This document shows positions 29,581 to 63,897 of a DNA stretch of 64,000 nt, one piece after another (the first letter of the stretch is position 1; the number at the start of each line of letters is the position of its first letter). Both the position numbers and the translations under genes were made by a program. The notes under the pieces are model-generated. The model saw nothing but the letters and a program-made list of their open reading frames with translations, had not been told where the DNA came from and searched no databases. This stretch comes from Actinomycetota bacterium (GTDB taxonomy: Bacteria > Actinomycetota > Nitriliruptoria > Nitriliruptorales > Nitriliruptoraceae), in contig JAHWKY010000022.1 of assembly GCA_019347575.1 (NCBI GenBank), positions 1-64,000 of the forward strand. Reading direction: 5' to 3'.

Positions 29581-31308
29581 ATGGTGAACGACCACCCGTT
29601 GCGCGAGCGCCTGGAGTCCATCGATGGGCGTGACTACGGCGCGTACCGGTCGCTACGGGGCGTGCACCGCTTCGAGCGCTTCGACCTCGATATCGATCGC
29701 GTACCCAGCGATCCCTACGCCCCGCCCGGCACCGGGGTGTTCCGCGTGCGGGTCCCCAACGCCGGGGTCGGCCTCACCGAGGACGACCTCGCCACCCCGG
29801 CGCGGGACGTGGCGGTCCGTGACCACCTGTGCCGCCGCTTCCACGCCGCCGCCGAGCGTCTGAGCGGCGGCCGACGCGGGACCGGCTGGTCCGGGGTCAT
29901 CACCGTCGCCAGACCGGGACAGGCCGTGCTCGACCGCAACGCGGTCCTGATCGCGCACGGTGTCGTCGAGCTGCGCGCGTTCGTCGGGCTGCCTGCCCGC
30001 GGTCGCCGGATCGACGCGGACCTCGCCGCGACGGTGCTGCTCGAGGAGCTGCCTACCATCGTCGCGGCCAGCCTGTCCGCCGACACGCTCGACCGCGGCC
30101 AGCTCGAGCGGCACGTGCGGACCGTCGAGGATGCCCGGTCGCTGCGGGCGCAGCTCACGGACGCTGGGCTCGTGGCGTTCCTCGCCGACGAGGCCGTGCT
30201 GCCCCGGGCGAGCGGGGTGGACGATCGGCCGCTCGGGGACGGCGCGATCCCGTTGGCCTCCCCGGACGCGCTCCGCATGACCCTGGAGGCTCCCCACGCG
30301 GGCGCCGTGACCGGCATCGGGATCCGGCGGGGCGTCACCGTGATCGTCGGTGGCGGGTACCACGGCAAGTCCACGCTCCTGGCTGCGCTCGGCGCCGGGG
30401 TGTACGACCACATCGCGGGGGACGGGCGCGAGCGCTGCGTGAGCCTGCCCGAGACGTTCCCCGCCCGTGCCGCGCCGGGGCGGTCGGTCGCCGGCGTCGA
30501 CATCTCGGCGTTCATCCAAGGGCTGCCGGACGGTCGTGACACGACCCGGTTCACCACCCCGAACGCCAGCGGCTCGACCTCGCAGGCCGCCGCCATCAGC
30601 GAGGCGATCGAGGCAGGGGCGCAGGTGCTGCTGGTCGACGAGGACAGCTCCGCGACGAACCTGCTCGTGCGCGACGCCCGCATGCAGGCGTTGGTGGCGC
30701 GCGAGGACGAGCCCATCACCGTGCTCCTCGATCGCGTCCGCGACCTGCACGACCAGCTCGGCGTCTCGACCGTCCTGGTGCTCGGCGGGGCGGGCGACTA
30801 CCTCGACGTCGCCGACCACGTCATCCAGATGGTCGGGTTCGCGCCCCGCGAGGTCACGCAACGGGCGCGCGAGGTCGCCGCGGCGCTCCCATCCCGGCGA
30901 CGGGCCGAGGCCGCGACGTCTCTACGTCCCCCGCGTTCCCGCATCCCCGCCCCGGGCACCATCGAGACGCACAACGAGCACGGCAAGCGCCGGGTCCGCC
31001 CCGTCGCTCGCGACCGGATCGTGATCGGGAGCGGCGAGCTCGATCTTCGCGACGTCGCGGATCAGCTCACCGAGCCGGCCCAGACCGCCACGGTCGCGGC
31101 AGCGATCGAGCGGCTCGCGGACGCGTTGGACGGGAGCACGACGGTGGTCGATGCCGTCGGTGAGCTCTTCGCGGAGGTGTCGTCCGACGGGCTCGATGCG
31201 CTCGATGAGCATCGTCGGGGTCGCCTCGCCGAGGTACGGGCGCTCGACATCGCCGCGGCTCTCAACCGCCTCCGCACCCTGGGGCTGACCGCCCCGTCCT
31301 CGCAGTGA
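29581..31308 (+). CDS. ABC-class ATPase (PF09818-type)
   Basis: 575 residues. An N-terminal 260-residue region (FERFDLDIDRVPSDPYAPPGTG) precedes the P-loop GVTVIVGGGYHGKSTLLAALG (Walker A GGGYHGKST). Further motifs are SGSTSQAAAISEAIEAGAQVL, a signature-like segment, and the Walker B LLVDEDSSATNLLVRD. This arrangement matches the family annotated as predicted ATPase of the ABC class, whose members are single soluble proteins with no transporter partner. The cellular role is not known; links to nucleic acids have been proposed from its fold only. The ATG at 29581 is chosen over an earlier frame start because the N-terminal homology begins there. Confidence 0.85.
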   Translation: MVNDHPLRERLESIDGRDYGAYRSLRGVHRFERFDLDIDRVPSDPYAPPGTGVFRVRVPNAGVGLTEDDLATPARDVAVRDHLCRRFHAAAERLSGGRRGTGWSGVITVARPGQAVLDRNAVLIAHGVVELRAFVGLPARGRRIDADLAATVLLEELPTIVAASLSADTLDRGQLERHVRTVEDARSLRAQLTDAGLVAFLADEAVLPRASGVDDRPLGDGAIPLASPDALRMTLEAPHAGAVTGIGIRRGVTVIVGGGYHGKSTLLAALGAGVYDHIAGDGRERCVSLPETFPARAAPGRSVAGVDISAFIQGLPDGRDTTRFTTPNASGSTSQAAAISEAIEAGAQVLLVDEDSSATNLLVRDARMQALVAREDEPITVLLDRVRDLHDQLGVSTVLVLGGAGDYLDVADHVIQMVGFAPREVTQRAREVAAALPSRRRAEAATSLRPPRSRIPAPGTIETHNEHGKRRVRPVARDRIVIGSGELDLRDVADQLTEPAQTATVAAAIERLADALDGSTTVVDAVGELFAEVSSDGLDALDEHRRGRLAEVRALDIAAALNRLRTLGLTAPSSQ

Positions 31309-31321
31309 GTAGGTGTTGGGG

Positions 31322-31367
31322 TCAGCCGAGGTAGGCCAGGACGGCAAGGACGCGGCGGTTGTCGTCG
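31322..31367 (-). pseudogene. Relic of a response-regulator 3' end (DDNRRVLAVLAYLG-stop)
   Basis: Read on the minus strand, 31366-31322 encodes DDNRRVLAVLAYLG and a stop. These are the same residues as the C-terminus of the response regulator at 4273 (which has one further Ala), and the DNA differs at only about 3 of 43 positions. The frame ends upstream exactly where the 62-bp repeat array begins, so the rest of the gene is missing. The other regulator in the window (24916) does not share this tail. Confidence 0.75.
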
Positions 31368-31519
31368 GAAACGCGCGTGGATGCGTGTTCCCGTCCGGCC
31401 GACGTGCCCAGGCCGCGCTGCCGATGACGGAAACGCGCGTGGATGCGTGTTCGCGTCCGGCCGACATGCCCAGGCCGCGCTGCCGGTGACGGAAACGCGC
31501 GTGGATGCGTGTTGCCGTC
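31364..31519. repeat. Array of three 32-nt palindromic elements at 62-bp spacing
   Basis: Palindromes at 31364-31395, 31426-31457 and 31488-31519 share GACGGAAACGCGC (GTCGG at the first), a GTGGAT loop and a GCGTGTT-x-x-CGTC arm. The two 30-nt spacers are almost identical (2 differences), so the true unit is 62 bp. Copies of the same unit lie at 61628-61721. The array lies between convergent genes. CRISPR is excluded by the identical spacers. Confidence 0.9.
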
Positions 31520-31552: not shown

Positions 31553-33007
31553 TCACCCCTCGGGGACGTAGAGGATGCGGATGTCGGCGAGGATGATCGT
31601 GTCGCGGTACGACACGAACGTGGCGTCGTACGCCGGCGTCGCACCCAACGCGAAGACCTGGGGGACCGGTAGCGCCAGGGTGGTCTCCGGGCCGGTACCC
31701 GCCTCGCTGCAGGGGTAGTCGGCGTTCTCCAGCGTGAAGCGGGGCACCCAGTCGGTGGTGGGGTTGGGCGAGTCCCAGTCGAGGCGCGCCCGCACGGCGG
31801 TCGCTGCCGAGGTCAGGGGGATGAGCTCGGAGACGGCCGGGCAGTTGGCCACCACGACGGCACGCATGGCTGGTTGACGCACGGAGTGGCCGGGTGTGAA
31901 CGCGACCTGGATCCGCTCCAGCGTGCGCTGCCCGTAGACGACCAGCAGGTACGCGGTGTAGCTCGAGGTCTGTCCCGCCTCGGTGGGTGCCACCTCGAGC
32001 CCCAGCTCGCCAGCCGGCAGGTCCGTGGCCGCGACCACGTCGGTGCCGCGACCACCGGCGATGCTCCCGGGGTTGGTGCCGCTGTCGACCTCGGCCCCGC
32101 CGTGCAGCAGGCGCAGGTGTGGGGCCTCCGTGATCCGCTCGGCGTGTAGCTCGCCGTCCCGGGCCGCCGTGTAGACGACGGGTTGGCCGAAGGCCTCGAC
32201 CCAGCCGATCACGGCGGCGGCTGGACGGTCGGTGGTGTGGGTCAGCGTGGCGGCCTCGGCGAGCGTGCCCTCCATCGTGACGACCTCCCAGTCGTCGTCG
32301 GAGAACCACAGCGAGCGCACCGGCGTCGAGAACGTCCGTGGCGCCTCGGAGAGGGGGCTCTGGCGCCACAGGTCGGTGGTCGACCAGCCGGCGACCGGCT
32401 GTGGCAGCTCGATCCAGGACGTCCCGTCCACGCCTAAGCGCACCGTGGCGTGGCCCTCACCAGCGAACCGCAGCTGGACTCCGAACAGCTCGTAACCCTG
32501 CTCGGACAGCGCACCGGGGATGTCGAGCTCACCCTCCCACACGCCCGGCTCCACCTCAGTGGCCGGTGCCGACGAGTTCACCCCGCCCGCCCGAGGTGAG
32601 TGCACCAGGTGGACGTCGAAATCCGGCACGGGCGTGTCCACGTCGAGGGCGAGGCGGAAGCGCAGCGGTGCCTCGGCGTTCCAGGCGACCGGCTCCGCGA
32701 CGCGGCTGCGGGGGTGGAACCACAACGTGAACGACCGGTCGGTGCCCGACCGCCCCGCTAGGCAAGGCGCACCGTCCGGGACGCCTCCCTGGCTGGGACA
32801 CGTACGGGTCACGAGCTGGCGGTCGGCGCTCTCCTCGTGGGGCGCGAAGCTCCACCACAGGTACTCGCCCGTGTCCGCGTGCAGGTGGATGCGCTGGTAC
32901 GGGCGGGACCCGTCGGACCCCGTGCTCGCCGGTGCCATCGCCACCACCCCGGCGGTGAGCACCGCCAGCCACAGCCACGCCAACGAGCGTCCGGAACGCC
33001 ATCCCAC
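31553..33007 (-). CDS. Secreted protein of unknown function
   Basis: 484 residues, GTG start with GAGGGGG upstream. An N-terminal signal peptide or anchor (about 5-27, LAWLWLAVLTAGVVAMAP) is followed by an all-beta sequence with many Thr, Val and Pro residues. Possible immunoglobulin or jelly-roll modules include YQRIHLHADTGEYLWWSF and LSEQGYELFGVQLRFAGEG. Four scattered cysteines (CPSQGGVPDGAPC, and ANCP with YPCSE) could form two disulphides. No enzymatic motif recognised. It follows the repeat array and is transcribed toward it. Confidence 0.75.
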   Translation of the reverse strand: MGWRSGRSLAWLWLAVLTAGVVAMAPASTGSDGSRPYQRIHLHADTGEYLWWSFAPHEESADRQLVTRTCPSQGGVPDGAPCLAGRSGTDRSFTLWFHPRSRVAEPVAWNAEAPLRFRLALDVDTPVPDFDVHLVHSPRAGGVNSSAPATEVEPGVWEGELDIPGALSEQGYELFGVQLRFAGEGHATVRLGVDGTSWIELPQPVAGWSTTDLWRQSPLSEAPRTFSTPVRSLWFSDDDWEVVTMEGTLAEAATLTHTTDRPAAAVIGWVEAFGQPVVYTAARDGELHAERITEAPHLRLLHGGAEVDSGTNPGSIAGGRGTDVVAATDLPAGELGLEVAPTEAGQTSSYTAYLLVVYGQRTLERIQVAFTPGHSVRQPAMRAVVVANCPAVSELIPLTSAATAVRARLDWDSPNPTTDWVPRFTLENADYPCSEAGTGPETTLALPVPQVFALGATPAYDATFVSYRDTIILADIRILYVPEG

Positions 33008-60120: not shown

Positions 60121-61629
60121 TTGAGCCGGTTCCCCCTCCATCCCCTCCTGCTGGGATCGTTCCCGGTCCTGTTCCTGTGGTCGCAGAACGCCTCCGAGGT
60201 CCACCGCGGTGAGGTCCTTCCGATCCTCGCCGTCGTGGCCCTCGGTGTGGTCGTCCTCGCTGCGGTGGTCGCCCTGATCCTGCGCGACGCGCGGCGAGGA
60301 GCGCTCGCCGCATCGGTCGGCGCGGTCGTGCTGCTGTCGTACGGCCACATCGCCGCCGACCTCTCGCCGTGGCTGGGGATCGGCCTCGCCCTCGTGCTCG
60401 TCGTGGCAGCCACCCTCGTCGCGGTGAAGGCCACTGAGGCCCACCTCGCGGGGGCGACGCGGGGCGCCAACGTGATCGGGGTCGTCCTGGTGGCGACGAC
60501 GCTCGTGCCGCTCACGGGCGAGGCTCTGGCGTCCGCCCCGGCGAGCGCCGAGCTCGGCGACGGCGTCGAGATCCAACGTCCCGACGAGCCTCCGGACATC
60601 TTCTACATCGTCCCCGACCGCTACGCCCGGGGTGATGTGCTGCGCGAGATCTTCGACCACGACAACCGCGACTTCACCTCGGAGCTCGAGGCGCTGGGTT
60701 TCGACGTGCTCGACCAGAGCCTGGCGAACTACCCCAAGACGGCTCACTCGCTCGCGACGTCGCTGAACCTCGAGTACCTCGAGGAGCTCGAGCGGACCAT
60801 CCCCGCCAGCCGTGGGGGCGACTGGGGACCGGTCTACGCCCTGCTCCGCGATCACCGTCTGGGCGAGGCGCTCACCTCCATCGGTTACGACTACCTCCAC
60901 CTCGGGACGTGGTGGTCGCCCACGGCCACCTCGGTGCACGCGACGCACGTGCTGACCCGCAACCGCAGCTCCGAGTTCCGCCAGGTTTTCGAGTCGACCA
61001 CCGCGTGGCCTGCCCTGCGGTCGCTGTTCGGCGAGGACGAGCCGCTCACCCGGCGCGATGCGCACCGTGTGTTCGGCGAGCACCAGCTCGACACCCTCGA
61101 GGAGCTCGCCGGACAGGACGGTCCCGCGCCCCGATTCGTGTTCGCGCACCTGGCCCTGCCCCACGAGCCCTACGTGTTCGACGCCGATGGCTCGGTCGTC
61201 CTCGAGGGGGTCGAGAAGTCCCGGACCCGAGAGGACAACTACGTCCGCCAGCTCACCTACCTCAACCGGCGGCTACTGGCCATCGTGGAGCGGATCGTGG
61301 AGCACAACCGCGACGCGGTCGTGGTGATCCAAGCCGACGAGGGCCCACACCCGGTCCGGCGGCTCCGCCAGGGCCCGCCGTACCGGTGGCTGGAGGCGTC
61401 AGTGGGCGAGCTGGGGGAGAAGCTGGGGATCCTCAACGCCGTCCGGCTCCCGGGCGTGTCCGACGCGGCGCTGGCCGAGGACCTGACCCCGGTCAACACC
61501 TTCCGGCTCGTGCTCGACCGCTACTTCGGCGCGGACCTGCCCCCGCTGGGGGATCGCAGCTACGTCTTCCCCGACGAGGACCACCTCTACACCTTCGTGG
61601 AAGTCACCGACCGCCTCCGCGGTCGGTGA
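60121..61629 (+). CDS. Membrane-anchored sulfatase-like hydrolase/transferase
   Basis: 502 residues from a TTG two bases after the methyltransferase stop. About four N-terminal membrane helices (residues 1-140) precede an extracytoplasmic alkaline-phosphatase-like domain: PDIFYIVPDRYARGDVLREIF, LANYPKTAHSLATSLNLEYL (likely nucleophile Thr or Ser), RFVFAHLALPHEPYVFDADG and VVVIQADEGPHPVRRL. The family includes sulfatases and phosphoethanolamine or phosphoglycerol transferases acting on envelope polymers. With the methyltransferase it probably modifies a surface polysaccharide or lipid. Confidence 0.87.
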   Translation: MSRFPLHPLLLGSFPVLFLWSQNASEVHRGEVLPILAVVALGVVVLAAVVALILRDARRGALAASVGAVVLLSYGHIAADLSPWLGIGLALVLVVAATLVAVKATEAHLAGATRGANVIGVVLVATTLVPLTGEALASAPASAELGDGVEIQRPDEPPDIFYIVPDRYARGDVLREIFDHDNRDFTSELEALGFDVLDQSLANYPKTAHSLATSLNLEYLEELERTIPASRGGDWGPVYALLRDHRLGEALTSIGYDYLHLGTWWSPTATSVHATHVLTRNRSSEFRQVFESTTAWPALRSLFGEDEPLTRRDAHRVFGEHQLDTLEELAGQDGPAPRFVFAHLALPHEPYVFDADGSVVLEGVEKSRTREDNYVRQLTYLNRRLLAIVERIVEHNRDAVVVIQADEGPHPVRRLRQGPPYRWLEASVGELGEKLGILNAVRLPGVSDAALAEDLTPVNTFRLVLDRYFGADLPPLGDRSYVFPDEDHLYTFVEVTDRLRGR

Positions 61630-61721
61630 CGGAAACGCGCGTGGGTGCGTGTTCCCGTCCTGCTGACGCGCGCTGACCGCGATGGTGGTGACGGAAACGC
61701 GCGTGGATGCGCGTTTCCGTC
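61628..61721. repeat. Two 32-nt palindromic elements at 62-bp spacing (second locus)
   Basis: The copy at 61628-61659 begins inside the stop of the preceding gene. The copy at 61690-61721 is a perfect hairpin: GACGGAAACGCGC and GCGCGTTTCCGTC around GTGGAT. The 30-nt interval matches the spacers of the array at 31364-31519 in 21 of 30 positions, so the same 62-bp unit is present. It lies between convergent genes. Confidence 0.9.
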
Positions 61722-61731
61722 ATGATGCCGG

Positions 61732-63897
61732 TCAGCTTCGGGGATCTCGGTCCTCGGTCGCGTCCACGGTGCGGGTGGCCGGGAAGACGATGACGGCGAC
61801 AGTCTGGGTCGCGCGCGACAGGATGTACTCGACCCCGTGACCGAGGAAGGGGGCGTCGCCGTGGGCGCGCAGCTGGGTCGCGAGCACGATCAGGTCGGCG
61901 CCGCGCCCGTCGGCCGTCGCCACCAGCTCCCCGTACGCGGTCTGGCCCACCCGAACCAGCACCGAGGTGTGCTGCCGGAAGCGCCGGGCGACCTCTCGCG
62001 TCCGGGCGGCCTGGCTGCGGATCGCCGGTTGTGCCTTGGGCACCGCCCCGGGGTTGTCCTCGTCCTGGAGCACGACGTGGACGGCGTCGACCTCGGCACC
62101 ACAGCGCGCCGCCAGGGCGTAGCCGAGTTCCTCGGCTGCGTGCCCGGCCGTGGTCCCGGTGATGGGGACGATCAGGTGACGGAAGCGATGCTCGACGAGC
62201 GCTTCCGCGTCCCAGTCTCCACCGCCGCGGCGCACGAGCAACAGCGGGATGGTGGTGCGTGACAGCAGACCGGACAGGGCGGGGGAGAGGGTGTCCGCAC
62301 CGGTGTAGGGCTCGGTGAGGCCCACCGCCACCATGCCGTAGCCGAGGTCGCCCTCACGCAGGACGGCGGCGCCGATGTCCTCGGCCTCGGTCGTGCGGAG
62401 GTCCGCCTCGCGGTTGCGCAGGACCGGCAGGACGGACCGGCCGATCTGCGGATCGAGGGGTGCCCGTCCCTTCTGGTCGATCGTGAGGACGGTGACCCTG
62501 GCCTCGTCGCGTAGGGCGAGGTCGAGCACGTGCGCAGCCATCAACGAGTTCAGCCCCCCGCGCGTGGGGACCAACGCGTTGTCCACCCGGGCGATGACGC
62601 TGCGGCCGAGGAACTCCTCGCGTTCCATCCGCTCCGCCTCCTCCGGGGCGGCGACGATGCGGCGCAGGACGATGCGCAGCAGAGGCGGGGCGAGCAGCGA
62701 GGTCGCGATCGCCATCACCACGACCGCGGTGTACGAGGTCGGGTTGAGCACCCCGAGGCGCAAGCCGATGATCGCGACGACGATCTCGAGCGCCCCGCGG
62801 GCGTTGAGGCCGACACCGGCCGCTAGCCCCTCCATCCGGCTCAGACCGCTCAGCCGCGCCCCGGCCGCGGACCCCACCAGCTTGCTGATCGCGGCGACGG
62901 CGATCACAGCGATGGCCCACGGCAGCGCCTCGGCGGTGACGACCGCTCCGAGATCGACGTACAGACCCGCGGTGGCGAAGAACACGGGAGCGAAGATCGC
63001 GTTGGTCATCGACTCGATCGTCTCGCGCACATCCAGTCGCTGGTAGCGGGAACGGCCGAGCACGATGCCGGCCACGAACGCGCCGAGGACCGCCTCCACC
63101 CCGATCACCTGCGTGACCACACCCATCGCCAGGGCGATGAGGATGGTGACCGTGAGCACACCGCTGTAGCCACCGCTCGCACGCGCGGTGCGGAGCACGC
63201 TGTCGGTGGCGCGCTGGCCCACCGTCAGCGACGCGACGACGAAGGCGAGTACGAGCGCGATCGTCGTCCCGAGCGAGACGAGGTCGACGCCGCCGTGCGA
63301 CACGACCCCGGCGACGACACCGAGCAGGATCCAGCCCACCAGGTCGTTGGCCATGCCGGCCGCGAGCACGATCTGTCCCACGTTGCGGCGCAGCAGGCGC
63401 ATGTCGGCGAGGATCTTGGCCACGACCGGCAGCGCCGAGACGCTCAGCGCCACCGCGAGGAAGAGCGCGAACCCCAACTGGCTGCCCTGTTCGCCGTGGA
63501 AGGCGGCCGGGATGACCCAGCCGAGCCCGAAGCCGAACGCCAGGGGTACGACGAGGCTGCCAACCGAGACCGCGGCCGACTGCCGTGCGAGCCGCCGCAA
63601 CAGCCCGAGGTCGGTCTCGAAGCCGGTGACGACCAGCAGCAGCACGATGCCGATCCAGGCGACCGTCAGGATCGGGGCGCTGTCGATCTCGGTCCCGGGG
63701 AAGAGCCACGCCGCCTGGTCGGGCAGGATGCGGCCGAGCAGGGTCGGACCGACGAGCAGGCCGGCTCCGAGCTCACCGACGACAGCAGGTTGGCGTACGC
63801 GGGTCGCGAGCGCTCCCAGACCCCTGGCGACCGCCAGCAGCAACAGCAACTGGAGCCAGAACAGCAGGAGCGTGTGCTCGGTGAGGGGCGTCAGCAT
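61732..63897 (-). CDS. CPA2 cation/proton antiporter with C-terminal USP-like domains
   Basis: 721 residues from the ATG at 63897. About 12 membrane helices (RGLGALATRVRQPAVVGELGAGLLVG, GVGLNARGALEIVVAIIG) are followed by two USP-like domains. The ion-binding helix reads AAGMANDLVGW, with the ND pair characteristic of electroneutral antiporters, unlike the DD pair of the paralogue at 22187. In CPA antiporters the DD form moves two charges and ND one, so different pH behaviour is expected (inference). AGCGTA on the plus strand at 63951 (TACGCT on the minus) may be its -10. Confidence 0.88.
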   Translation of the reverse strand: MLTPLTEHTLLLFWLQLLLLLAVARGLGALATRVRQPAVVGELGAGLLVGPTLLGRILPDQAAWLFPGTEIDSAPILTVAWIGIVLLLVVTGFETDLGLLRRLARQSAAVSVGSLVVPLAFGFGLGWVIPAAFHGEQGSQLGFALFLAVALSVSALPVVAKILADMRLLRRNVGQIVLAAGMANDLVGWILLGVVAGVVSHGGVDLVSLGTTIALVLAFVVASLTVGQRATDSVLRTARASGGYSGVLTVTILIALAMGVVTQVIGVEAVLGAFVAGIVLGRSRYQRLDVRETIESMTNAIFAPVFFATAGLYVDLGAVVTAEALPWAIAVIAVAAISKLVGSAAGARLSGLSRMEGLAAGVGLNARGALEIVVAIIGLRLGVLNPTSYTAVVVMAIATSLLAPPLLRIVLRRIVAAPEEAERMEREEFLGRSVIARVDNALVPTRGGLNSLMAAHVLDLALRDEARVTVLTIDQKGRAPLDPQIGRSVLPVLRNREADLRTTEAEDIGAAVLREGDLGYGMVAVGLTEPYTGADTLSPALSGLLSRTTIPLLLVRRGGGDWDAEALVEHRFRHLIVPITGTTAGHAAEELGYALAARCGAEVDAVHVVLQDEDNPGAVPKAQPAIRSQAARTREVARRFRQHTSVLVRVGQTAYGELVATADGRGADLIVLATQLRAHGDAPFLGHGVEYILSRATQTVAVIVFPATRTVDATEDRDPRS

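Follow-up and report, generated by a model that had tools for sequence, protein, structure and literature searches.

REP-like palindromes are common in bacteria. In the literature covered here, the sole REP enzyme described is the HUH-type RAYT (TnpA-REP), which forms REPtrons with REP or REPIN sequences. In these, the palindromes are dispersed and extragenic, near gene 3′ ends, the gene of the dedicated DNA-processing enzyme lies between its cognate repeats, which change along with the enzyme, and the target is a tagged hairpin of single-stranded DNA. The CGTC-tagged REPs, mostly of Alphaproteobacteria, are gene-end palindromes for which neither a dedicated transposase nor a flanked enzyme is known; they have stems of 8–9 bp with an unpaired CGTC tag and mostly form head-to-head dimers (PMC3733652). 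Two protein families are also relevant to what follows. AbiEi antitoxins of type IV AbiE systems (AbiEi of S. agalactiae, Rv2827c of M. tuberculosis) belong to a family that binds inverted repeats, and AbiEi does so cooperatively and bends the DNA (PMC7319586). Among the Vsr-fold EDxHD homing endonucleases, I-Bth0305I dimerizes on a DNA target almost 60 bp long (PMC3943268). The palindrome arrays analyzed here have a REPtron-like organization, and we consider it rather probable that they are the cognate sites of a protein combining an AbiEi-like half with a Vsr-type nuclease, which would maintain or spread them.

The window (the whole stretch of 64,000 nucleotides that was analyzed) contains two arrays of 32-bp palindromes, most of them imperfect (Table 1). 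The preliminary description had reported exact 62-bp steps, and these hold for the three units of array A and the two of array B; adjacent units of array A are identical at 58 of 62 positions. It had also singled out the second unit of array B as a perfect 13-bp stem with a 6-nt loop, and this is indeed the only perfect copy among the five, the other four having at least one mismatch. The first of the imperfect copies begins with GTCGG, and their 3′ arms read TTCCCGTC, TTCGCGTC, and TTGCCGTC. The linkers of the two loci are related, as had been noticed, but they share 20 of 30 positions and not 21. Both loci do lie between convergent genes, and the gene to the left of array B ends inside the adjoining palindrome, its stop codon overlapping the first base pairs. 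All gene calls were made within the analysis, those of the window from codon usage. No Rfam family matches the window at gathering thresholds.

Table 1. Palindromic units, linkers, and adjoining genes in the window (feature, positions, strand, remark)
Palindromic unit 1, array A (class 1)	31364..31395	+	differs from the genome consensus at 1 position
Linker 1 of array A, 30 nt	31396..31425	+	
Palindromic unit 2, array A	31426..31457	+	
Linker 2 of array A, 30 nt	31458..31487	+	
Palindromic unit 3, array A	31488..31519	+	
Palindromic unit 1, array B	61628..61659	+	overlaps the stop codon of the upstream gene
Linker of array B, 30 nt	61660..61689	+	20/30 identical to the array A linker
Palindromic unit 2, array B	61690..61721	+	perfect 13-bp arms, 6-nt center
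Convergent gene left of array A	29581..31308	+	codon-usage gene call
Convergent gene right of array A	31553..32983	-	codon-usage gene call
Convergent gene left of array B	60121..61629	+	codon-usage gene call
Convergent gene right of array B	61732..63897	-	codon-usage gene call

These repeats are not a product of chance, since the 32-mer pattern, with up to three mismatches, matches 27 places in the genome from which the window comes (G000), versus none for the reversed control. Searched with a covariance model as well as a dyad pattern, this genome yields 59 imperfect 32-bp palindromes of the same class (class 1) in 26 arrays; the preliminary description had named the absence of further copies as a refutation, and this is not borne out. 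The arrays have one to four units each, spaced by 61–62 bp and rarely by 59, 63, or 64 bp, and all are intergenic. There is a strong bias toward convergent junctions, which account for 14 of the 24 scored arrays versus 8 of 82 among the remaining junctions that measure 60 bp or more (p = 2e-6). Tandem genes border nine of the arrays and divergent genes three, and in four arrays the upstream gene's stop codon overlaps the first unit. Homology between loci ends at the array borders with one exception, the pair L086/L095: here, L086:3491-3535 and L095:2547-2591 have 44 further bases in common on the upstream side of the first palindrome (TGCCGCGCTAGCGCAG), which may go back to a duplication carrying flanking DNA. 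Weak model matches at C8:136791, C1:11502, C6:166188, and C47:2824 show no array by pattern, and in the region of another (C13:48755) the sole match is weak, isolated, and intragenic.

When an exact 19-mer was searched in the genomes of 84,980 species, the two matches, in unrelated bacteria, were due to chance, and the strict palindrome pattern, searched in 396 genomes of the phylum, was found only in G000 and at one isolated site. The loose pattern AACnCGC-N6-GCGnGTT with one mismatch matches everywhere, with a marked excess just in G000, G004, G005, G006, and G018.

Comparison of array neighbors across genomes reveals one gene that is flanked on both sides in G000 and G006 and is adjacent to an array in G018. 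In G000 it lies outside the window (C52:2472-3419), codes for a protein of ~315 amino acids, and has class 1 palindromes on both sides; its neighbors, read by eye, are NuoF-like and kgd-like. A paralog in the same genome (C8:84868-85794) is flanked on both sides by palindromes of an unrelated second class (GGAACCCCCGTATCCGGTGGTTCC), in steps of 61, 72, and 92 bp. This second class is also present at six other dispersed array loci of G000, in steps of 59, 62, and 71–73 bp. The same genome has a third tandem palindromic family (GTGCTCAAGTAGCGAAGCGGTAGCAC), unrelated to both classes, with a period of ~33 bp that is off their spacing ladder (L094:3915-4083, L089:226-326, L098:4477-4574, L102:6141-6248). 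A dispersed intergenic homology of ~55–75 bp (AACTTCATCACCC...GATCGGGGGACGAAGT) is found at L094:2090-2165, L106:3489-3561, and L087:6037-6090.

Homologs of the flanked gene are present in 19 of the 35 genomes of the taxonomic family. The tandem detector used first was strict, and a later version scored the flanks with controls (275 control stretches, maximum 44, 99th percentile 42). A clear array of its own palindrome accompanies 18 of the 20 family homologs, as judged by a flank score of at least 44 or a 72-bp repeat match. The score itself reaches 44 in 17 of the 20, among which L272 merely equals the control maximum, at 72 bp; the array of L273 is a 72-bp repeat with 22 of 30 bases matching. 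The homologs L263 and L264 of genus g6 have weaker pattern matches, ~50–52 bp apart. The flanking palindromes differ completely between most genera (e.g., CGAGAAGCAGC..., GGTTTCCGTC..., GAAGTCGGC..., AGTTCCTGGGC...). A kgd-like gene, an alpha/beta hydrolase gene, or both adjoin the homolog at most family loci, so the gene is mostly vertically inherited; homologs away from this locus (L276 and L259) are array-flanked too. Among more distant relatives, one class-level homolog (L293, in G038) is accompanied by a pair 82 bp apart and the one in G040 by no array, and the background homologs from elsewhere in the phylum (L294-L308, ~90–120 bits) have no flanking array by the strict first detector. 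G038 also has a palindrome pair 52 bp apart near position 4834 of L344 (TCGCGGGC...GCCCGCG), possibly within coding sequence. In G004, a draft genome that is 92% complete, arrays are present and no homolog was found. Viral contigs and plasmids gave no homologs.

The G000:C52 protein itself has no match in Pfam and no real match in NCBIfam. Among 18 homologs, Pfam gives only weak matches, to AbiEi_4 (PF13338) in four (best E = 2.9e-6), to REase_MTES_1575 in four (3.4e-4), and to DUF559 in three. An AlphaFold2 model was made from the 18-sequence alignment (mean pLDDT 90.7, pTM 0.69). Its residues 2–196 resemble AbiEi (6y8q, Z = 11.0) and residues 1–198 resemble Rv2827c (1zel, Z = 8.2), whereas residues 202–300 resemble the catalytic domain of I-Bth0305I (3r3p, Z = 12.6), an endonuclease-like protein of Neisseria (3hrl, Z = 12.2), and Vsr (1cw0, Z = 10.3). 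Invariant in the alignment are E205, D232, E243, G246, D249, H250, D259, and R262, of which the E/D/H set is putatively catalytic. Hence, the protein is predicted to consist of an AbiEi-like DNA-binding N-terminal half and a C-terminal endonuclease half of the Vsr/EDxHD type.

The arrays of relatives, built of other palindromes, have periods of 51, 61–63, 72, or 82 bp, that is, roughly whole helical turns. Within the same family, pairs in G004 are exactly 72 bp apart, and in G006, whose 10 arrays comprise 26 units, all intervals measure exactly 62 bp. In G005 and G018 (genus g6), intervals are mainly of 51–52 bp, and also of 61–62, 71–72, and 81 bp, with a few outliers. For every one of 21 lineages or classes, the modal value is 51, 61–62, 72, or 82 bp, with five changes of period class inferred on the protein tree, and linker lengths are kept although the linkers form 58 clusters of <70% identity. 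The lineage-level test for phasing gave 0 of 20,000. A test that weights each distinct length equally, including single outliers (59, 64, 75, 107, 109), does not reach significance (p = 0.37), and 11.15 bp is preferred when the fit to the full set of spacing values is left free. Because the claim rests on modal spacings, helical phasing of the units is likely but not proven. The relatives compared belong to other genera than the species of the window, and most of their genomes are drafts. Many contigs of G005 and G018 end in palindrome arrays (e.g., G018:C5, C47, C181, and C347; G005:C154 and C468), and several homolog genes likewise lie at contig ends. Arrays thus probably break short-read assemblies, and the true copy numbers in genus g6 are probably higher.

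One may ask whether the palindromes act in RNA or as DNA. Transcribed hairpins, serving in tandem and without a U tract as bidirectional terminators or as stabilizers of mRNA 3′ ends, would agree with the sites at gene 3′ ends and with the folding of single units at −14 to −24 kcal/mol. Yet there is a T-rich tract beside none of 126 unit ends and no terminator-like site at array A, so that the bidirectional terminator proposed in the preliminary description finds no support in its canonical intrinsic form. The column counts also speak against hairpins. The half-sites are nearly invariant, with a variable base inside the arm (AAC-n-CGC/GCG-n-GTT), and a hairpin under selection should show compensatory changes at such positions. 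None are seen in either genome examined: pairing of the variable stem pairs of G000 is below that of 497 of 500 shuffles, and the variable inner position of G006 is paired in 8 of 26 units, versus 10.2 expected by chance. As variable positions are not kept paired, sequence comparison argues for dyad-symmetric protein sites in double-stranded DNA rather than RNA hairpins. The protein-binding array that had been suggested as a third option gains support from this unpaired dyad motif as well as from the helical spacing. Transcribed hairpins further leave unexplained the sequence identity of dispersed copies, the whole-turn spacing, and the flanked nuclease gene, and we find this explanation very improbable. 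Neither do we think it likely that the arrays are passive relics, i.e., non-autonomous miniature elements of another transposase for which the surroundings of the AbiEi-Vsr gene are a frequent insertion neighborhood. The repeats are short, dispersed in several contexts, and without coding capacity, and insertions could be especially frequent at the locus next to the kgd-like gene. However, every homolog has its own palindrome class, including the two paralogs at different loci of G000 and the two of G006. One would also not expect relics to keep their linker lengths while linker sequences diverge, nor homologs away from the kgd/hydrolase locus to be flanked.

The main rival, which we hold to be unlikely, is that the arrays are domesticated binding sites with an architectural or roadblock role. 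Bound by the protein or by another host factor, phased arrays would stop RNA polymerase, insulate or end transcription between convergent genes, or hold supercoils, and the nuclease half would be unused for spreading. The convergent bias is what such a role would lead one to expect, and whole-turn spacing suits cooperative binding. The gene occupies a conserved chromosomal locus, and arrays lie beside orthologous genes in two congeneric species, with five array-flanking genes in common, so the arrays may be old and static. On the other hand, a role between convergent genes does not account for the arrays of G000 in tandem and divergent contexts, and the nuclease-type residues are invariant. 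Moreover, that a single genome has two classes, each with an enzyme of its own, fits selfish spread better than one shared role.

If the arrays are instead the cognate sites of the AbiEi-Vsr nuclease, as we favor, the AbiEi half would place a dimer of the protein on each palindrome, recognized as double-stranded DNA through its dyad symmetry. With spacings of mostly 5, 6, 7, or 8 helical turns, neighboring dimers would come to lie on the same face of the DNA, where they may contact each other or jointly present their nuclease domains. These domains would then cut or nick at the array, and repair copying could amplify the units in tandem and occasionally seed new arrays elsewhere, which would be kept mainly just 3′ of genes, where insertion does least harm. 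Binding, cooperativity, cleavage, and mobility or dispersal are the steps that we infer here; the repeat family, its place at gene ends, the type of motif, the association of each gene with its cognate palindromes across genera, the modal spacings, the conserved residues, and the predicted fold are results of computation. The fuller proposition, that an AbiEi-Vsr endonuclease coevolves with whole-turn duplex arrays and spreads them at gene ends, with classes coexisting without cross-talk, we regard as about evenly balanced between true and false.

The resemblance to REPtrons lies in the organization. The palindromes are dispersed, at 3′ ends and convergent junctions, a dedicated enzyme gene is flanked by its cognate repeats, and both change together. 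To this extent, the earlier suggestion of a REP-like element stands, but the RAYT that it would entail is missing: a RAYT-like transposase was sought in G000 and none was found, the HUH domain Y1_Tnp (PF01797) having no match in this genome while matching the positive-control genomes. An unpaired GTAG or CGTC end tag is also absent from the column counts, where the outer GAC/GTC are part of the dyad, no GTAG occurs, and the flanks vary. With neither an HUH transposase nor either of these tags, and with hairpins showing no trace of selection, the arrays are not classed here as a REP/RAYT REPtron. The enzyme is of AbiEi and Vsr/EDxHD type instead of HUH, the target behaves as a duplex dyad, and units stand head-to-tail in tandem, mostly at whole-turn spacing. 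The CGTC-tagged REPs differ in their shorter stems, tag, and head-to-head dimers, and in having no known flanked enzyme. With EDxHD homing endonucleases the protein shares the predicted C-terminal fold, and the ~60-bp target of the I-Bth0305I dimer is a further point of likeness; it differs from them in its AbiEi-like N-terminal half and dispersed palindromic array sites, and it was not seen in an intron or intein. With AbiEi antitoxins it shares the N-terminal fold, but it has a nuclease-type C-terminal half and sites all over the chromosome rather than at one promoter, and no toxin was recognized by eye among the neighbor genes read.

Two other known types of repeat were considered. CRISPR arrays also combine a palindromic repeat of ~30 bp with a spacer of ~30 bp, and the preliminary description rightly confined the likeness to spacing. 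There are no unique spacers here, the linkers being near-identical within arrays and differing in length between lineages by about one helical turn, and CRISPR is rejected. The boxes of integron attC sites (RYYYAAC/GTTRRRY) are absent too, as purines (GGA or GGG) precede AAC and mostly pyrimidines follow GTT. We rate the system as categorically new, since no tested family fits and its parts are unrelated to those of REP/RAYT, even if the organization is still REPtron-like. The open-access literature, to which our search was confined, yielded no description of a nuclease flanked by palindrome arrays, or of such arrays in Actinobacteria.

In conclusion, a Vsr-fold nuclease with an AbiEi-like half, unrelated to RAYT, appears to fill the RAYT niche, each enzyme having one cognate palindrome class, and two such enzyme-palindrome classes occur together in a single genome. 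Given the whole-turn spacing, a half-turn shift between two sites is predicted to abolish whatever activity the protein has. If the proposal is true, it would constitute a second route to the origin of extragenic palindromes and provide many natural pairs of protein and palindrome from which AbiEi-type recognition could be learned, and it may also account for breaks at gene ends in the assemblies of some of these genomes.
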